The notes under the pieces are model-generated. The model had not been told where the DNA came from. It saw only the letters and a list, made by a program, of their open reading frames with translations, and did not search any database. The position numbers and the translations under genes are program-made. This document shows, in pieces, positions 1-10,987 of a DNA stretch of 64,000 nucleotides. Numbering within the stretch: position 1 is the first letter of the stretch; each line of letters opens with the position of its first letter. This DNA is from Candidatus Nanopelagicales bacterium (GTDB taxonomy: Bacteria > Actinomycetota > Actinomycetes > S36-B12 > CAIYMF01): the NCBI GenBank assembly GCA_017882705.1, contig JADGOZ010000132.1:30193-94192 (forward strand), written 5' to 3'.

Positions 1-13
1 ATACCGTGGAGGC

Positions 14-364
14 ATGACCGGGACCGATCGAGCCGCCCTTCGTGCGTTGGTCGATCAAGGTAACGAGGAGGCTGCCGATCGCCTCGCTCACCTCGCGGCC
101 GAAGATGGGGATGTCGAGACGTTGAAGTACCTCATCGACGCCGGGAACGAGTCCGCGGGCGACTTGCTGGCGAAGCGGGCCGCTGAGCAGGGCGACCTTG
201 AGACGTTGGAGTATCTGATCGGCAACGGCGTCATGTCGGCGGTGGACCGGCGAGCCGAGATCGCCTTGGAGATGGGTGACGCCGCCACGCTGCAGCGGCT
301 CGCGGACGAAGGCAGCGAGGTAGCTCAGACGTTGCTGACTCGCACGATCAGCGACACGGAGTAG
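14..364 (+). CDS. Small repeat protein made of four 28-residue ankyrin/TPR-like helical repeats
   Basis: After MTGT the protein is exactly 4 x 28 aa with consensus DxxTLxxLxDxGNExAxDxLAxxAAExG; complete ORF with stop. Confidence 0.75.
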   Translation: MTGTDRAALRALVDQGNEEAADRLAHLAAEDGDVETLKYLIDAGNESAGDLLAKRAAEQGDLETLEYLIGNGVMSAVDRRAEIALEMGDAATLQRLADEGSEVAQTLLTRTISDTE

Positions 365-411
365 CCGTGCATACGTGCCGGTCGGCATCGCCTCTTCCAG
401 CCTCGGAGGGG

Positions 412-1608
412 CTATGCCTTGGGAGGCTTGTGCGTCAGGGGTATCCCTGCCGCTGGTGACCCTAGGCGACCTCGGTTGCTCCCCCGCCGTCCGGTGAGTA
501 GAGCCGCCGCTGTCCAGCCGAGAAGGGCAACCCCCCACACGACGTACCACTCGCGCTGTGGAAACCACCAGGCGTCGCCCGGAAGCAGGGCCCTGCTGCC
601 GCGCAGACCGACCTGGTCGACCCAGAGCAGCATCCCGACGATCGCCGTCGACAGCAGGACGATGACCCAGGCCCTTCGGGTTCGGGTTTCACGGAGCAAC
701 AGGATCAGAGATGGGTAGATCGCGACCCAGTGGTGCGGCCAGGACACCGGGGACACGAGCAGGCCGGAAACCAGCACCGTGGAGAGCCCGGCCAACTCGT
801 CACCCTGCCGCCAGAGCGCGGCCGTCAGCGCGACTCCGAGGACCAGCGCCAGCGCAGCCACGGTGAGGCCGACCCATGCGGGCAGAGCGACGAGAGTCGT
901 GACCCCGATGAGTGAGTGGTTCAGGACGTCGGGCGCGGAGTTGACGTCGTTCGCCAACCGCCAGGCACCCCCGACATAGTCGCGCACGGCTGCGGGCGAG
1001 AGGGCTGCAGCGGCGGCGCAGGCTCCGACGAAGCCGGCCATCCCCCAGAAGGCGCTGCGCCATCGCCCGGCCGCCGCCAGTCCCACCAGCACGACCGTCG
1101 GGGTCAGTTTCGCGGCGGCGGCGACGCCAACGAGCCACGGGCGGATCGGGTGCCGGGGCTGGCCACGCAGTCCCTCGACTGTCAGCCAGAGCAGCACGAG
1201 CCCGACCTGACCGAAGGACAGAGTGATCAGGGTCGGCTCCAGCACGCAGGCAGCGGCGAACAACCAGCAGGCACGCCGCCGCAGTTGCACTGCGTCCAGA
1301 GTCGGCCAGGCCAGGTCCACCAGGATCCACGTGGTGCGCCCCAGCGCCGCGATCGAGATCGCGAGCCACACCATCGTCGCGGCATGGAAGTTCCGTCCGA
1401 TCGCAGTCGGCAGAGTCACGAGGAGCCCAGCAGGCGGGTAGACGAATGGCACATCGGACGGGAGGAAGTACGGGGATCGCCCCTGCAGTACCGCCTCGGC
1501 TGTGTCGCGGAACACGGCCGTGTCGATGTGGCTGCCTGTAGTGCTTGCCCACCAAGCGACAATCGCGGCCGCGGCCGCTCCCGCCAGGGGTGGAACCGCC
1601 GACCACAT
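412..1608 (-). CDS. Polytopic membrane glycosyltransferase 87/DUF2029-like protein
   Basis: Multi-TM ORF with GT87-like N-terminus (DTAVFRDTAEAVLQGRSPYFLPSDVPFVYPPAGLL) and SPVSWPHHWV; start set at MWSAVPP within the longer ORF 412..2529. Confidence 0.75.
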   Translation of the reverse strand: MWSAVPPLAGAAAAAIVAWWASTTGSHIDTAVFRDTAEAVLQGRSPYFLPSDVPFVYPPAGLLVTLPTAIGRNFHAATMVWLAISIAALGRTTWILVDLAWPTLDAVQLRRRACWLFAAACVLEPTLITLSFGQVGLVLLWLTVEGLRGQPRHPIRPWLVGVAAAAKLTPTVVLVGLAAAGRWRSAFWGMAGFVGACAAAAALSPAAVRDYVGGAWRLANDVNSAPDVLNHSLIGVTTLVALPAWVGLTVAALALVLGVALTAALWRQGDELAGLSTVLVSGLLVSPVSWPHHWVAIYPSLILLLRETRTRRAWVIVLLSTAIVGMLLWVDQVGLRGSRALLPGDAWWFPQREWYVVWGVALLGWTAAALLTGRRGSNRGRLGSPAAGIPLTHKPPKA

Positions 1609-1680
1609 CGTGCGCGCTAGTTCCACGTGTCGAATCCTGCGCACTTGTGCAGTGTGCCAGGAACGCCACGACGGAACGCT

Positions 1681-2145
1681 GCGGAGAGGTAGCGGCGGTC
1701 GGAGACTTGCCACTCGTCGTGGGTCTCGATCAGCACCGCGCCGGCGAGGCGGAGCAGTGCTGCGGGGTTCGGGAAGACACCGACGACGTCGGTGCGGCGT
1801 TTGATCTCCTTGTTCACCCGCTCGAGGGGGTTGGTGGACCAGATCTTCTTCCAGTGCGCGGTGGGCAAGTCCGCGAACGCAGTGATGTCCTCGGCGGCGT
1901 CGCGGAGCATCGCCTCGACCTTGGGGAACTGGCGGCCGAGCATGGTCGCGATCACGTCGAGCTGGTCGCGGACGTGCTCGGCGTCGGGTTGGGCGAAGAT
2001 CGTCCGGATCGCTGCGGCGACCATCTCCGCGGACCCTTTCGGGACCTGGTCCAGGACGTTGCGCAGGAAGTGGACCCGGCAGCGCTGCCAGGAGGCACCG
2101 AGCATGACGGCGCTGATCGCGGCTCGGAAGGGCTTCTGGTCGGGT
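1681..2145 (-). mobile_element. Truncated IS256-family transposase (C-terminal half only)
   Basis: ASWQRCRVHFLRNVLDQVPKGSAEMVAAAIRTIFAQP...HWKKIWSTNPLERVNKEIKRRTDVVGVFPNPAALLRLAG matches the IS256 catalytic C-terminus; no N-terminus and altered C-terminus after DRRYLS. Confidence 0.88.
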
Positions 2146-2177
2146 CTTCCATGTCCTTGCGGGCCTGGGGCTGTGGG

Positions 2178-2318
2178 CTTGCCTGGGTGATCCAGTACGG
2201 CTCGTTCCACGGGGTGTGTGTGACGGAGACGAACCCGGAGGCATGGAGCAGATCGGTGAGCTCTTGTCGGGTTCGGTCCTGACCGCCGGTGAGGGCGAAC
2301 TCGTTGAGGCTTGCCATG
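2178..2318 (-). pseudogene. C-terminal remnant of a SAM-dependent O-methyltransferase
   Basis: MASLNEFALTGGQDRTRQELTDLLHASGFVSVTHTP resembles the LTGGxERTxxExxxLLxxAGF end of O-methyltransferases; no catalytic N-terminus. Confidence 0.55.
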
Positions 2319-2555
2319 GCGTGCGGGGCTCGTGCCGGCCCGTGGGGTACCACGAGGTTCCATCAGCCGACCTCAGCAGCACGTCCCCCTTTGTCCCCGC
2401 ACCGTGCCAACGTGGGGGCATGACCGACTCCTGGACCGTTGACACACGAGACGAACCTCGCGACGAAACTGACGTGGGCACCAGGACGAACCTGCCCGGG
2501 AGCCCGTCGGCACGCAATCGACACGTCACGGGACCGGCGGTCTGGGACTACGGCG

Positions 2556-2726
2556 CTACCGGACGTGGCACCAGTGGCAGGCGGCGTACCCGACGCTCAG
2601 CAGGATGGGGACGTCGCGGCGCCGCGCCTCCTCGAACGCCTCCGGCCCCCACTCCTGCCAGTCGACCGGATTGTCCTTGTGCTGCAACAGGTATGGACTG
2701 GTCGAGCTCGCGAGCCGGTTTGGCAC
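2556..2726 (-). pseudogene. 5' fragment of DUF255/YyaL thioredoxin-domain gene (copy 1), readable as a 56-aa ORF ending CHWCHVR*
   Basis: Reverse-strand reading (GTG start) [56 protein letters not shown]; matches the N-terminus of DUF255 proteins, remainder absent. Confidence 0.85.
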
Positions 2727-2964
2727 GGCGTGCCCTCCTCACGCTGCGGCCGGTCGAAGACGCGACCGGCACGCGACCCAGCCTGGCACACGGGGCGACG
2801 CGCGAAACGCACCGCAGCCGCGGCACTCAGCCGGACTGGGCCGGACGAGGCCGGACAGGACGCGGGCCGTTCTCCACCAACTCCGAGTTCCGCGCAGGAC
2901 AGCGCCGTGCATGTGGCCGACGTCAAGCCTGTGGGCGGCGCTGCCGCCGTGCGCCGCGAGCAGC

Positions 2965-3612
2965 TCAGTCAGGGTTGGGCCTGCCCACCAACGGACCACG
3001 TCCAGGCGCACGAGATGGCTCGAGACCGGTCAGCAGGGTTGCCGCCCGGATCACGTGGGCGAGGTCGCGTTCGCACCGCTCCGCGTCTCGGGTGACCTCG
3101 TACTGGATGACCAGTCCGTCCATGGCCGCGACGAGGAAGTTGGTGAGGTCCGTCATGCTGATGTCGAGCGCTCGGGTCTCGAAGGTGGCAGCCGCGTCGA
3201 AGACCTCGAGCGCGGCGGACGCGTACCGGGCGTACTGCCACTCGGCCAGCCACTCGAAGCCCTCGGTGCGTCGGCAGAAGATGGTGAGCTCGTACTGCAT
3301 GAGGCGGAGCCCGTCGTCGGCGACGGCGTGCGCCCAGTAGCCGCGCAGGCCGTCCTCGATGGCCGCGGCGAGACCCAGCGCGGGGTCGACCGCGTCGCGC
3401 AGGACCTTCTCCACCTCCAGTGTCACCGCGCCCACGACCGCGGTCAGCAGCTCGTTCTTGTCGCGGAAGGCGTAGTGGAACGCGCCCTGCGGTGCCCCCG
3501 CCTCGTCCGCGATCCGGCGCGTCGTGGTGCGTTCCAGTCCTTCGCGCGACATCACCCGGATCGCGGCCTCGACCAGCTGATCGCGCCGGTCCACGGCGCT
3601 GATGCGGACCAT
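2965..3612 (-). CDS. TetR-family transcriptional regulator
   Basis: N-terminal HTH RRDQLVEAAIRVMSREGLERTTTRRIADEAGAPQGAFHYAFRDKNELL; divergent from amine oxidase. Confidence 0.9.
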   Translation of the reverse strand: MVRISAVDRRDQLVEAAIRVMSREGLERTTTRRIADEAGAPQGAFHYAFRDKNELLTAVVGAVTLEVEKVLRDAVDPALGLAAAIEDGLRGYWAHAVADDGLRLMQYELTIFCRRTEGFEWLAEWQYARYASAALEVFDAAATFETRALDISMTDLTNFLVAAMDGLVIQYEVTRDAERCERDLAHVIRAATLLTGLEPSRAPGRGPLVGRPNPD

Positions 3613-3675
3613 GGGACGAGCCTCCTGGACATGGTTGACGAGTGACGTGAGCCACACCATACTCGGGCAACCGTC

Positions 3676-3691
3676 TTGGTCGTTTGACCAA
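3676..3691. promoter_or_regulatory. Palindromic operator candidate TTGGTC-GTTT-GACCAA between tetR and amine oxidase
   Basis: Perfect 6-bp arms with 4-nt spacer in the divergent intergenic region. Confidence 0.7.
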
Positions 3692-3715
3692 CTAGCAGCC
3701 CGCGGAGGCGGACCC

Positions 3716-5104
3716 ATGGTCGAGGACACCCGCGCAGACGTCGTGGTCGTCGGAGCCGGACTGGCCGGCCTGTCCGCGGCTCGATCCCTCCTGGACGCCG
3801 GGGTCGAGGTCCTGGTGCTCGAGGCACGCGACCGGGTCGGGGGTCGGACGCACTCGGTCGAGGAAGCCGACGGGCTCGTCATCGAGTACGGGGGGCAGTG
3901 GCTCGGCCCGACCCAGGACCGGGTGCTCGGTCTGGTCGAAGAGCTCGGTCTCGGCACGTTCACCCAGTACTCGGACGGCGACAACCTGCAGCTCACCGAC
4001 GGCGCCCGGCTGCGCTACCAGGGCGCGATCCCGACCGGGGACCCGGTCCAGGCGGCCGACCTGATCGACGCCATGGTCGAGCTGACGCTGACGTGCATGG
4101 AGATCGACCCGGCCCGCCCCTGGGACCACCCGCTCGCGGCGGTCCTGGACTCCACGACGCTGGAGACCTGGATCAGCGCGCAGCCCTACAGCGACGGTGC
4201 GAAGCAGTGGGTCCGCACGCTGAGCCGGGCCGTCTTCCCGGCCGAGCCGGGGGAGATCTCGCTGCTGCATGCGTTGTTCTACTTCCGCTCCGGTGGCGGC
4301 GTGGAGAAGATGATCGGCACGATCAACAGCGCCCAGGAGACCCGGATCAGCCTGGGCGCCCAACACCTCTCCCACGGCCTCGCCCTCCCGCTCGGGGATC
4401 GGGTTCGGCTCAACTGCCCTGTGACCCGTATCGACCGCTCGCACGACGATGTGGTCGTGCACCACGACGGGGGCACGACGACAGCACGTCGGGCGATCGT
4501 GGCGATCCCGCCCGTCCTGGCCGGACGGATCCGCTACTCCCCACCGATGCCGGGCGTCCGTGACCAGCTGACTCAGCGGTCGTTCATGGGCTCGGTGCTC
4601 AAGGTGCACGTCGTGTACGCACGGCCCTTCTGGCGCGACGCCGGCCTCAGCGGCCACGTCACCGCCGACACCGGATTGGTCCAGATCACCTTCGACCAGA
4701 GCCACCCGGACCGCACCGAGGGAGTCCTCGTCGGGTTCATCGACTCGCACCTCGGACGTACCGCCTCGCAGATGAGCGAGCCGGACCGCAGAGCCGCGGT
4801 TCTCGAAGACCTCGTGCGGATGTTCGGCGACGAGGCCGCGAACCCGATCGGCTACTACGAGCGGTCCTGGATCGACGAGGAGTGGTCGCGCGGCTGCTAC
4901 GTCGGGATGATGACGCCCGGCACCTGGTCCACCCTCGGTCACGCCCTCCGCGAACCCGTGGGTCCGATCCACTGGGCCGGGACGGAGACCGCCGTGATCT
5001 GGAACGGCTACATGGACGGCGCGATCCGCTCCGGCGAGGATGCCGCCGCGGCGGTCCTCGTCGACCTGGCCGCCCATGGCCTGCGGACGGAGGCGGCCCG
5101 ATGA
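3716..5104 (+). CDS. FAD-dependent flavin monoamine oxidase (putrescine oxidase-like)
   Basis: VVVVGAGLAGLSAARSLLDAGVEVLVLEARDRVGGRTHS dinucleotide-binding motif; IHWAGTETAVIWNGYMDGAIRSGEDAA C-terminus. Confidence 0.92.
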   Translation: MVEDTRADVVVVGAGLAGLSAARSLLDAGVEVLVLEARDRVGGRTHSVEEADGLVIEYGGQWLGPTQDRVLGLVEELGLGTFTQYSDGDNLQLTDGARLRYQGAIPTGDPVQAADLIDAMVELTLTCMEIDPARPWDHPLAAVLDSTTLETWISAQPYSDGAKQWVRTLSRAVFPAEPGEISLLHALFYFRSGGGVEKMIGTINSAQETRISLGAQHLSHGLALPLGDRVRLNCPVTRIDRSHDDVVVHHDGGTTTARRAIVAIPPVLAGRIRYSPPMPGVRDQLTQRSFMGSVLKVHVVYARPFWRDAGLSGHVTADTGLVQITFDQSHPDRTEGVLVGFIDSHLGRTASQMSEPDRRAAVLEDLVRMFGDEAANPIGYYERSWIDEEWSRGCYVGMMTPGTWSTLGHALREPVGPIHWAGTETAVIWNGYMDGAIRSGEDAAAAVLVDLAAHGLRTEAAR

Positions 5105-5481
5105 GCGTGGAGCGCGAGACGATCGGTGCCGCCGAGCTCGAGGAGGCCCTCCGCGAGTACGTGGACAAGGCCAACGCCAGCCCACGTGCCCGGAAGACGC
5201 TCGCGACGTGGTCCTGCCGTCTGCACATCGCCGCCACCGACGTCGAGGATGCCGCGTTCACCTACGTCGTCGAGCAGGGCGCCTCGCAGCCCCTCGTCGT
5301 CGGCCTCGAAGGAGTCCCCGACCTCGTGGTGCGCGGACACAGCTTCGACCTCGCCGAGATCTTCTGGGGCGACGCGAACCCGGTGTCGAACTACATGCAG
5401 GGTGCCATCAAGACCCAGGGTCGGGCCGACGACGTCATGCGTCTCGACGCGATGGCCATGTTCATCTTCCTCGGCCAGTGA
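5101..5481 (+). CDS. SCP2 sterol-binding-domain-like protein
   Basis: Overlaps oxidase stop; [34 protein letters not shown] resembles SCP2 C-terminal region. Confidence 0.65.
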
Positions 5482-5498
5482 GCAGGAGCCTCCCGGAC

Positions 5499-6872
5499 AT
5501 GAGCGAGCAGCAGACCCTGAACCGCGCCCTGTCGCTCGGCGGCGCGTCGGCGATCTCCACCGGGCTGGCCTTCGCGGCCATCAACTTCCTCGGCATGGCC
5601 CAGCTGCTGGACTACATCAGCGGGCCGATGTCCTGGATCGCCGTGCTCGCCGGCGGCCTGCTCATCCTGGGCGTCCGGGCGGTGTTCTCCGAGCTGAACG
5701 GCATGTACCCCACGGCAGCGGGCATCCGGCTGTGGATGTCCCAGGCGATGAACGACCGTCTTGCGCTCATCATCACGCTCACCTACATGACCGCGATCGT
5801 CCTCGTGATCGCGGCCGATGCGTTCATCATCGGCGAGGCGATCGCCTATGCGTTCGGCAACGGCCACGTCATCGCGATCGTCTACGTCGCGGTCCTGCTC
5901 GTCCTCGCGACCTGGATGAACCTGCGCGGCATCAAGCTCGCCGGAGTCGCCGAGCAGATCGTCACGACGATCGTCGTCGTCGTGACCATGGGCGTCGGCG
6001 TCATCGCGATCTTCCACCACGGGGAGGCACCGCCCGGCCCGGTCGGCGACGGATCCCCGATCCAGGCGCTGATCCTCGGGATCTTCCTCTACACCGCGTT
6101 CGAGTGGGTCACCACCAATGCCGAGGAAGTCGTCAAGCCCAAGATCATCCCCCGCGCCATGCTCATCGCGATCATCGTCCTCGCCGTCAGCCAGACCGTC
6201 TTCACCGTCGCGATGGGACTCACCGTCGACGCCGCTGGACGCGCCACGGCGTACCCGCAGCTGCTCGTCGCCCAGCAGGTCATGGGGCACACCGGGATGC
6301 TGGTGATGCTCGCCGTCACCGCTCTGACGGCCGTGAACACCTTCAACGGCGGCTTCGTCACCCTGTCGCGCTTCGTCTACGCCGTCGCCCGTGAGGGCAA
6401 GCTCCCCCGTGCACTGACCCGGCTCAACGACCGCGCCGTCCCCGTCGTCCCCGTATGGCTCCTCGGGATCTCGTCCCTGATCCTCGCGGTCGTCGTCGCC
6501 ATCACGGGCTCCTGGGTCATGGTCGTGTCCCTGTGCGCCGCCCTCGAGATGATGATCTACGCCACCGCCGCCTTCGTCGTCTGGCGGCTTCGCCGCAAGC
6601 AGGCCGACACCGAGCGCCCCTTCCGCCTCGCCGGCGGACGCCCCGTGGCCCTCGCCTTCATGGTCGTCTTCGGCCTGCTCGCGACCATCAGCAGCGTCAC
6701 GGTCGGCAAGGACACCAGCGCAGTTCCCCTGGCCCTGCTCGCGGTCCTCACCGGGCTCGTCACGCTCTACGTCTTCACCTACGTGCCACGGCTCGAACGC
6801 CGGGACGCCGAGGAGTTGGCCGCCCGTCGTGCTGCCCGGGCCGCAGCACGGGCTCAACGGTCCTCCGACTGA
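5499..6872 (+). CDS. APC-superfamily amino acid/polyamine permease
   Basis: About 12 TM segments, APC-like [29 protein letters not shown]; downstream in same apparent operon. Confidence 0.9.
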
Positions 6873-6914
6873 CCGGCACGGAACCGGTCGCAAGCGACTC
6901 CCCAGCCAGATCGA

Positions 6915-7082
6915 CCGGACGTGGCACCAGCGGCAGGCGGCGTAGCCCACGCTCAGCAGGACCGGGACGTCGCGACGCCGCGCCTCCTCGAACGCCGAAG
7001 GTCCCCATTCCTGGCAGTCGACCGGGTTGTCCGCGTGCCGCAAGAGGTACGGCGACGTCGACGAGGCGAGGCGGTCGGGCAC
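6915..7082 (-). pseudogene. 5' fragment of DUF255/YyaL thioredoxin-domain gene (copy 2)
   Basis: [56 protein letters not shown]; same truncation point as copy 1, then reads into unrelated sequence. Confidence 0.88.
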
Positions 7083-9559: not shown

Positions 9560-10987
9560 TCAGCCGCGCAGCGCCTCGGCGAGGTCGCGGAACTCCTCGA
9601 CCAGGAGACCCATGTCGTCGGCGGTGTGTGCGAGCGACACGAGCCACTGCTCGTCGAGACCAGGAGGCGTGAGGATGCCGCGGTTGACGCCCCACAGCCA
9701 CGACAGCTCGGCCGCGCCGAAGTCGGTGCGCTTGTAGTCGCGGTAGGTGCGTACCGGCGTCGACGACCAGGTGACAGCACCCTTGACGCCGAAGCCGACG
9801 GTGTGGGCCGGGAGCTCGTGCTCCGCGATGATCCCGTCCATCAGCGTGAGGGCGTCGACGTTGAGCTTCTCGGCGGCGCCGAGCGCCGCCGGCGTCGCGA
9901 TCTCGTCGATGGCGACGGCGGCGGCCACCACGAGCGGGTTGCCGTTGTAGGTGCCGAAGTGCGGCATGCGACCGTCGGTGAGGCACTCCATGACCTCGGA
10001 CGAGCCACCGAACGCCGCGAGCGGGAGTCCACCGCCGATGCTCTTCGCCAGGGCGACGAGGTCCGGCGTGACGCCGAGGCGCTGCGAGGCGCCGGCCGCA
10101 CCGGCGGTGAGGCCGGTCTTCACCTCGTCGAAGACGAGCAGCGAGCCGTGCGCGTCGCAGAGGGCCCGGACCCCGGCGAGGTAGCCGGCGTCGGGGACCA
10201 CGATGCCGATGTTCTCGAGCACCGGTTCCATGAAGACGCAGGCGACGTCTGCGCCGTACTGGTCGAAGAGCTGCTCGAGGCGCGCGAGGTCGTTGTAGGG
10301 GACGACGTGGACCGTGCCGGCCTCGACCTCGAACGGCGTGACCGGGGTCGGCGCGGCCTCGGGGCCGGCGTCGGCGACGTCGGGCTTGACCGACACCTGC
10401 AGAGCGTCGTAGCCGCCGTGGTAGCCGCCCTCGATCTTGATGATCGCCTTGCGGTTGGTGAAGGCGCGCGCGGTGCGCAGCGCGTACATCGTGGCCTCGG
10501 TGCCGGAGTTGGCGAAGCGCAGCTGCCCAAGGGAGAAGCGGCGCTTGAACCGCTCGGCGGCGTCGGTGGCCGACGGCGACGGCGTGACGAACAGCGTGCC
10601 GGTCTCGAGCGCCTGCGTGACGGCAGCGATGACCGTGGGGTTGAGGTGGCCGGCGAGCATCGCACCGAAGCCCATCGACAGGTCGAGCAGCTTGCGGCCG
10701 TCGACGTCGGTGAGCCACGCGCCCTGCGCCGAGGTGATCGCGACGGGGTAGGGGTCCCAGTGCTGGAACGACGACGGCACGCCGAGCGGCAGCGGGCCGA
10801 GCGCGCGGGCGTGATGTGCCGCCGACTGCGGGGTCTGCGCCTCGAACCGCTCCCACTCCTTGGCCAGCAGGGTCGCGACCTTCGCGGAGTCGATCGGGGC
10901 GGAGGAGGCGGGCACGTTGCGCCAGGTGGCCGGGTCGTGGGCGGGCCAGGTGACCGGCGTGGGGACGGCTGCGGTGGTGTCGGACAT
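9560..10987 (-). CDS. Class III PLP-dependent aminotransferase (glutamate-1-semialdehyde aminomutase-like)
   Basis: LRFANSGTEATMYALRTARAFTNRKAIIKIEGGYHGGYD; LLVFDEVKTG; ALAKSIGGGLPLAAFGG. Confidence 0.92.
   Translation of the reverse strand: MSDTTAAVPTPVTWPAHDPATWRNVPASSAPIDSAKVATLLAKEWERFEAQTPQSAAHHARALGPLPLGVPSSFQHWDPYPVAITSAQGAWLTDVDGRKLLDLSMGFGAMLAGHLNPTVIAAVTQALETGTLFVTPSPSATDAAERFKRRFSLGQLRFANSGTEATMYALRTARAFTNRKAIIKIEGGYHGGYDALQVSVKPDVADAGPEAAPTPVTPFEVEAGTVHVVPYNDLARLEQLFDQYGADVACVFMEPVLENIGIVVPDAGYLAGVRALCDAHGSLLVFDEVKTGLTAGAAGASQRLGVTPDLVALAKSIGGGLPLAAFGGSSEVMECLTDGRMPHFGTYNGNPLVVAAAVAIDEIATPAALGAAEKLNVDALTLMDGIIAEHELPAHTVGFGVKGAVTWSSTPVRTYRDYKRTDFGAAELSWLWGVNRGILTPPGLDEQWLVSLAHTADDMGLLVEEFRDLAEALRG

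Follow-up and report, generated by a model that had tools for sequence, protein, structure and literature searches.

Integrative and conjugative elements (ICEs) of the SXT/R391 family insert at prfC in Gammaproteobacteria and supply the gene with a replacement 5' end; they are conjugative, encode their own type IV secretion system, and occur in tandem arrays. The dusA islands and prophages use a tyrosine integrase specialised for the 5' end of one protein-coding gene; the island swaps this 5' end and leaves the remnant at its far side, with excision shown by polymerase chain reaction (PMC4482086). Cis-mobilizable elements (CIMEs) and accretion elements are stacked islands that are bounded by copies of an attachment (att) site and carry neither integrase nor transfer genes (PMC5704250). 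The ICEs of actinomycetes that use tyrosine recombinases reside mostly in the 3' ends of tRNA genes (PMC3218068). In this study, we analyse a 64,000-nucleotide stretch of DNA (the window) from a Candidatus Nanopelagicales bacterium, in which two displaced 5' fragments of the yyaL (DUF255) gene, F1 and F2, bracket a small island.

We propose that two elements were inserted successively at a core within the CxWC codons of yyaL, each giving the gene a replacement start, and that complete, integrase-bearing relatives of these elements are present in other actinobacteria of soil and water. The probability of this reading is put at about 0.87.

Nested yyaL 5' ends with a common core

The window comprises bases 30193-94192 of a 94-kb contig (C9) from a draft genome of 3.56 Mb (G000). 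Three nested yyaL 5' ends, all on the same strand and in the same phase, were found on this contig, namely that of an intact and complete gene of 676 codons at 24683-22653, 5.5 kb to the left of the window, and those of F1 and F2 inside it (Table 1). Both fragments are open and match PF03190 (Thioredox_DsbH). Nucleotide identity over 167 nt was 81.4% between F1 and F2, 85.6% between the intact gene and F1, and 82.6% between the intact gene and F2. The yyaL homology of both fragments ends directly after TGCC(A/G)CTGGTGCCACGT, a string common to all three 5' ends; past this string F1 and F2 both read CCGGT and then diverge, and the intact gene goes on as yyaL. The core at the break, TGCCACTGGTGCCA, is 14 bp long and corresponds to the codons of the CxWC motif of yyaL. 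Around it, the sequence ACCGGACGTGGCACCAG was found as an exact match at 2558-2574 and 6914-6930, with no other site within two mismatches in the window (expected 0.02), and its twofold occurrence is no chance match. A search for an arm common to the junctions of F1 and F2 gave no significant match (p = 0.30).

The original prediction, made from the letters of the window, had described two in-phase fragments on the minus strand with a common break, and the PF03190 matches and the alignment confirm them; its by-eye estimate of 80-85% nucleotide identity includes the computed value. It had also placed tetR, FAD (flavin adenine dinucleotide) amine oxidase, SCP2 and APC permease genes between the fragments, in agreement with Pfam, in which the SCP2 match is weak and below the cut-off, and it had seen no integrase there, as is the case among the Pfam-scanned genes of this interval. 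The yyaL gene that it suggested looking for to the left of the window is the intact one, which holds the third 5' end at the same core.

According to the proposed mechanism, the core would be the recombination point of integrative elements, and the attP of each element would consist of ~165 bp of yyaL 5' coding sequence, its upstream region and the core, and would recombine with attB in the resident gene. Insertion would split the resident yyaL and rebuild a full, chimeric gene with the 5' end of the element, the old 5' end being left at the far end. Island A (between F1 and F2) would have integrated first, at the native yyaL, displacing F2 and bringing F1; island B (between the intact gene and F1) would have followed, displacing F1 and bringing the 5' end of the present intact yyaL, and both islands would later have lost a working integrase. 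The redox motif would be regenerated at every insertion and, with the cross-over located in a conserved motif that is in frame, the reading frame would stay intact. Integration, as well as excision, would follow standard tyrosine-recombinase logic.

The order of arrival was deduced from the flanks. Gene order downstream of yyaL is conserved in relatives and upstream of it is variable; the aminotransferase gene beyond F2 (window 9560-10987) is also found upstream of yyaL in two relatives (G015, G106) and partly in a third (G073). The aminotransferase gene and the conserved downstream order together indicate that the DNA between the gene body (left) and F2 (right) is inserted and that F2 is the native end. 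An upstream region of ~70 bp is common to the intact yyaL and F1 (local score 42, 0/500 shuffles) and absent at F2. In 166 genomes of the order, GTCCGGCCCAGTCCGG, a 16-bp part of this region, has exact matches only upstream of the intact yyaL and F1. This is as expected if two of the three ends are element-borne and one, F2, is native; the upstream region may serve as a yyaL promoter. One full-length yyaL without any fragment was found in 9 of 10 same-genus genomes; the tenth (G009) has two full copies and a contamination of 9%.

The core and a linked integrase family in other actinobacteria

Displaced yyaL 5' fragments that end at the core and lie upstream of yyaL were identified in ~20 other actinobacterial genomes; the original prediction had suggested a search for fragments ending at the CxWC codons. 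In a class-wide sample, yyaL was present in 305 of 395 genomes, and 11 of these, several of them closed, carry a displaced same-strand 5' fragment ending at residues 53-56. The distance from fragment to intact gene on long contigs was 6.3 kb in G221, 5.8 kb in G513, 3.2 kb in G507 and 5 kb in G334. Apart from G465, which is degenerate, all examined cases break inside the core or at it, with at most 1-2 mismatches.

These breaks bear on the idea that the yyaL copies were truncated by insertion of a transposon or insertion sequence (IS). The IS256/Mutator remnant in island B ends close to the F1 break and an IS3-type transposase adjoins the fragment in G101, as such an origin would have it, but F2 has no IS, the breaks match the core in genomes without any IS at the site, and an IS brings no replacement 5' end, which makes this explanation extremely unlikely.

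Tyrosine integrase genes were found just upstream of yyaL, and divergent from it, in G278 (468 residues) and G246 (459 residues), and an N-terminal remnant of the integrase in G020. This family, referred to as Int_yyaL, occurs in 3 of 385 genomes, always at yyaL. A scan of GTDB contigs revealed 13 Int_yyaL loci, every one of them beside a yyaL 5' end and 12 within ~200 bp of it; at the remaining locus yyaL is 3.4 kb off and the integrase gene is truncated. The hosts are Nocardioides, other Nocardioidaceae, a Frankiaceae metagenome-assembled genome, Cellulosimicrobium and Propionicicella, and most of these genomes also hold a displaced fragment at the far end. Two catalytic Arg residues are invariant in the family and the Tyr is present in 10 of 11 aligned members; Pfam matches are to SAM-like domains and, weakly, to PF00589.

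In the Nocardioides/Cellulosimicrobium set, complete elements occupy 16-28 kb between the intact yyaL and the displaced fragment (one interval measures 116 kb), with the fragment at 18.4 kb in N. phosphati (G523), 20.7 kb in C. arenosum (G531) and 28 kb in N. nematodiphilus (G527). The closed chromosome CP059259.1 carries the intact yyaL and an integrase gene at 1188 kb, a fragment beside a second integrase gene at 1072 kb, and a short third fragment at 1056 kb. The intervals are thus 116 and 16 kb, the inner fragment still adjoins its own integrase gene, and the arrangement is a tandem array, or accretion.

Complete elements encode the integrase, a type I restriction-modification system (HsdM, HsdS and HsdR), a TrwC/MobF relaxase-helicase, XRE regulators, a ~100-residue helix-turn-helix protein without a Pfam family, which is a probable excisionase, and toxin-antitoxin or other defence genes such as a GmrSD-like system (N. 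nematodiphilus) and a DUF4143 ATPase. No secretion genes were noticed among the part of the open reading frames (ORFs) that was scanned, which makes mobilizable elements likelier than self-transmissible ones. Judged by their gene content, the complete relatives are probably integrative, mobilizable elements, and their transfer would proceed by mobilization. At the far end, an arm, CGCAGGTCAG, is located 43 bp past the core in ~9 elements, including the integrase-less island of G221.

Local duplication of the yyaL 5' region, or homologous recombination in it, could also leave fragments without any site-specific recombination, and the 165-bp yyaL ends would offer homology for recombination between related islands. 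The same 14-bp core break in ~20 genomes, an integrase family located solely at yyaL and an arm conserved at fixed spacing all argue against such an origin, which we consider very unlikely. The comparative data support what had been proposed from the window, namely successive integrations at one site in the 5' portion of yyaL by elements that each bring a replacement 5' end.

Phage records and IMG/VR contained no relatives of Int_yyaL, and a phage origin of the family was accordingly set aside; among plasmids, one distant match (25% identity) was found. The sole match to the yyaL 5' end in phage collections, MT839133.1 (L064), was deposited as Bacteriophage sp. and was not accepted as a phage: it is an unannotated 4.5-kb contig, its reading frames look bacterial, and it ends inside the yyaL core (..CACTGGTG), as if the assembly had broken at a polymorphic insertion site. 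A viral-contig match (L063) was likewise rejected as a displaced fragment, being a full-length yyaL-like gene at a contig end.

Gene content and state of the two islands

The features of the locus are listed in Table 1. The nearest solved structures of the flavin amine oxidase of island A are PDB 8p84 (351 bits) and 2yg7 (288 bits), which are monoamine and putrescine oxidases, and homologues of the SCP2-like protein, with 36-38% identity, were found in 5 of the 166 genomes. The yyaL neighbourhoods of relatives did not contain the combination of cargo genes seen in island A. With att sites at both ends and neither recombination nor conjugation genes, island A has the structure of a CIME.

Table 1. 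Features of the yyaL locus (window positions unless a contig is named)
Feature	Position	Strand	Evidence or remark
Island B	C9 24523-32758; right-hand part = window 1..2579		8.24 kb
IS256/Mutator transposase remnant, in island B	1617..2363		truncated; ends ~200 bp from F1 break
F1, displaced yyaL 5' fragment	2562..2726	-	55 codons; PF03190 E=6e-26 and alignment
att core copy in F1, TGCCACTGGTGCCA	2566..2579	-	
GTCCGGCCCAGTCCGG, part of shared upstream region	2831..2846	-	16 bp
Island A	2566..6935		4.36 kb core to core (2566-6922); att core at each end, no integrase
TetR-family regulator, island A cargo	2965..3612	-	PF00440 E=6e-13
Flavin monoamine/putrescine-oxidase-like enzyme, island A cargo	3716..5104	+	PF01593 E=7e-70
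Small SCP2-like protein, island A cargo	5101..5481	+	PF02036 E=7e-4, below Pfam cut-off
APC-superfamily amino-acid permease, island A cargo	5499..6872	+	PF13520 E=2e-27
F2, displaced native yyaL 5' end (as read here)	6918..7082	-	55 codons; PF03190 E=1e-20
att core copy in F2, TGCCGCTGGTGCCA	6922..6935	-	

Island B encodes a GGDEF/EAL protein; its part within the window includes a GT87 ORF, and to the left of the window it holds a helix-turn-helix gene and a recombinase remnant. The small helix-turn-helix protein, a marker of the element family, shows 41% identity over 46 residues (E=2e-9) to the copy in the Cellulosimicrobium element, and was found in 4 of 232 class genomes (G278, G246, G221 and G000), invariably within an island flanked by yyaL. 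No relaxase homologue was found in the islands between the intact yyaL and F2. An integrase gene adjoins the reconstituted yyaL in 13 relatives and is absent from this position in G000.

Several observations weigh against successive integration by elements of this family. Neither an Int_yyaL gene nor a remnant of one was found in G000, and the right-end junctions at F1 and F2 are without the CGCAGGTCAG arm. The recombinase remnant of island B is the C-terminal part of another tyrosine-recombinase subfamily (PF00589, E=0.009, a weak match); tracing it as a link to yyaL gave only ~45% identical integrases, unconnected with yyaL, and it was discarded as such. When the three 5' ends were compared with yyaL genes of the same genus, for an origin other than that of the gene body, no donors were identified. 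Similar islands at the same core are also present in several other lineages without the Int_yyaL family, so that at least one more recombinase is likely. Varied break points, which the original prediction had named as a finding that would contradict it, were met in one case: the common core holds in nearly all genomes, but in G073 (L056, 10723-11127) the yyaL start breaks at residue 36 and is fused in frame to the tail of a short-chain dehydrogenase. This fragment was therefore set aside as an att-site product, and it indicates that not every yyaL fragment arises by core integration.

Since no Int_yyaL, relaxase or arm was found in G000, the islands of the window are best read, from their sequence, as decayed relatives of the complete elements; with the integrase family absent from the genome, they would be remnants or integrase-less passengers. 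It is conceivable, and we offer it tentatively, that island A never had its own integrase and is a passenger of the cis-mobilizable type with two att cores, moved in trans by the integrase of a helper element at the same site. Several islands at the core (G221, G513, G507, G492, G334 and G020) indeed measure 2-6 kb, have a core on either side and lack a complete integrase; in G221 the arm is still present where Int_yyaL elements have it. On the other side, remnants of an integrase or a helix-turn-helix gene in G020 and G221 suggest that complete elements have decayed. For island A, in which no remnant was identified, either decay or passenger status would fit; the island was presumably once moved by the same integrase.

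Other occurrences of the site add some detail. Displaced yyaL ends at the core without the Int_yyaL arm were found at L069, L070, L072 and L073 (G513, G507, G334 and G297), and some of these junctions share a TGA..ACACAACCAG-like stretch, which suggests a second recombinase. G492 (L071) resembles the window in having two stacked yyaL fragments, located 6.5 and 8.9 kb along the oriented locus; its islands contain VapB/VapC-like genes and small ORFs of unknown function, and the junctions share GGTTACTAGTCG.ATTTCCGCAGGTAAA. In G101 (L057), the fragment around 2100-2300 of the flipped locus stops at the core, and IS3-type transposase genes follow within ~150 bp. The G221 island (L065 5611-6869, 6916-9120) contains an IS3-type insertion and a TOTE-type primase-helicase adjoining a nucleotidyltransferase gene pair, possibly a candidate for an unstudied defence cassette. 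As a speculative extension, the CxWC codons of yyaL may be an actinobacteria-wide hotspot for more than one unrelated recombinase, at which small, integrase-less cassettes of cargo and defence genes, all equipped with a yyaL 5' end of their own, would be shuttled in trans and stacked in tandem, repeatedly replacing the yyaL start, which codes for the catalytic motif, by horizontal transfer.

Relation to described systems

A literature search that most subscription papers lay outside yielded no account of integration, or of a hotspot for it, at DUF255 or a thioredoxin-domain protein, nor any of the yyaL site, and the site and the Int_yyaL family appear to be undescribed. The core in yyaL and its dedicated integrase family would define a class of actinobacterial islands with restriction, toxin-antitoxin and metabolic cargo, for which the displaced yyaL 5' end is a simple marker to locate and bound such islands in actinobacterial genomes. 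Mobile DNA would here have exchanged the first 55 codons of a host gene again and again, at the codons of its redox motif.

By analogy, the mechanism of the yyaL islands resembles that of the dusA islands in its 5'-end replacement, the island lying between a full-length chimeric gene on its near side and the host's displaced 5' end on its far side, in G000 as well as in its relatives. The yyaL islands differ from the dusA islands in their target (yyaL/DUF255 at 13/13 loci), in a core situated in CxWC codons and in their actinobacterial hosts; further differences are the MobF/TrwC relaxase and defence cargo of complete elements and the build-up of remnants in tandem. Like SXT/R391 elements, the yyaL elements insert in the 5' end of a gene, supply a new one and form tandem arrays; unlike in SXT/R391, no transfer system was noticed among the ORFs scanned. 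They share with the ICEs of actinomycetes an integrated state in actinobacteria and a tyrosine recombinase, which most of those ICEs have, and are distinguished from these by the TrwC-type relaxase encoded in complete elements. As in CIMEs, the islands are bounded by att copies, integrase-less and stacked; mobilization in cis or trans by a related element would be putative here. The logic of these islands is known, and what appears to be new is the site, the integrase family and the serial stacking of integrase-less remnants.

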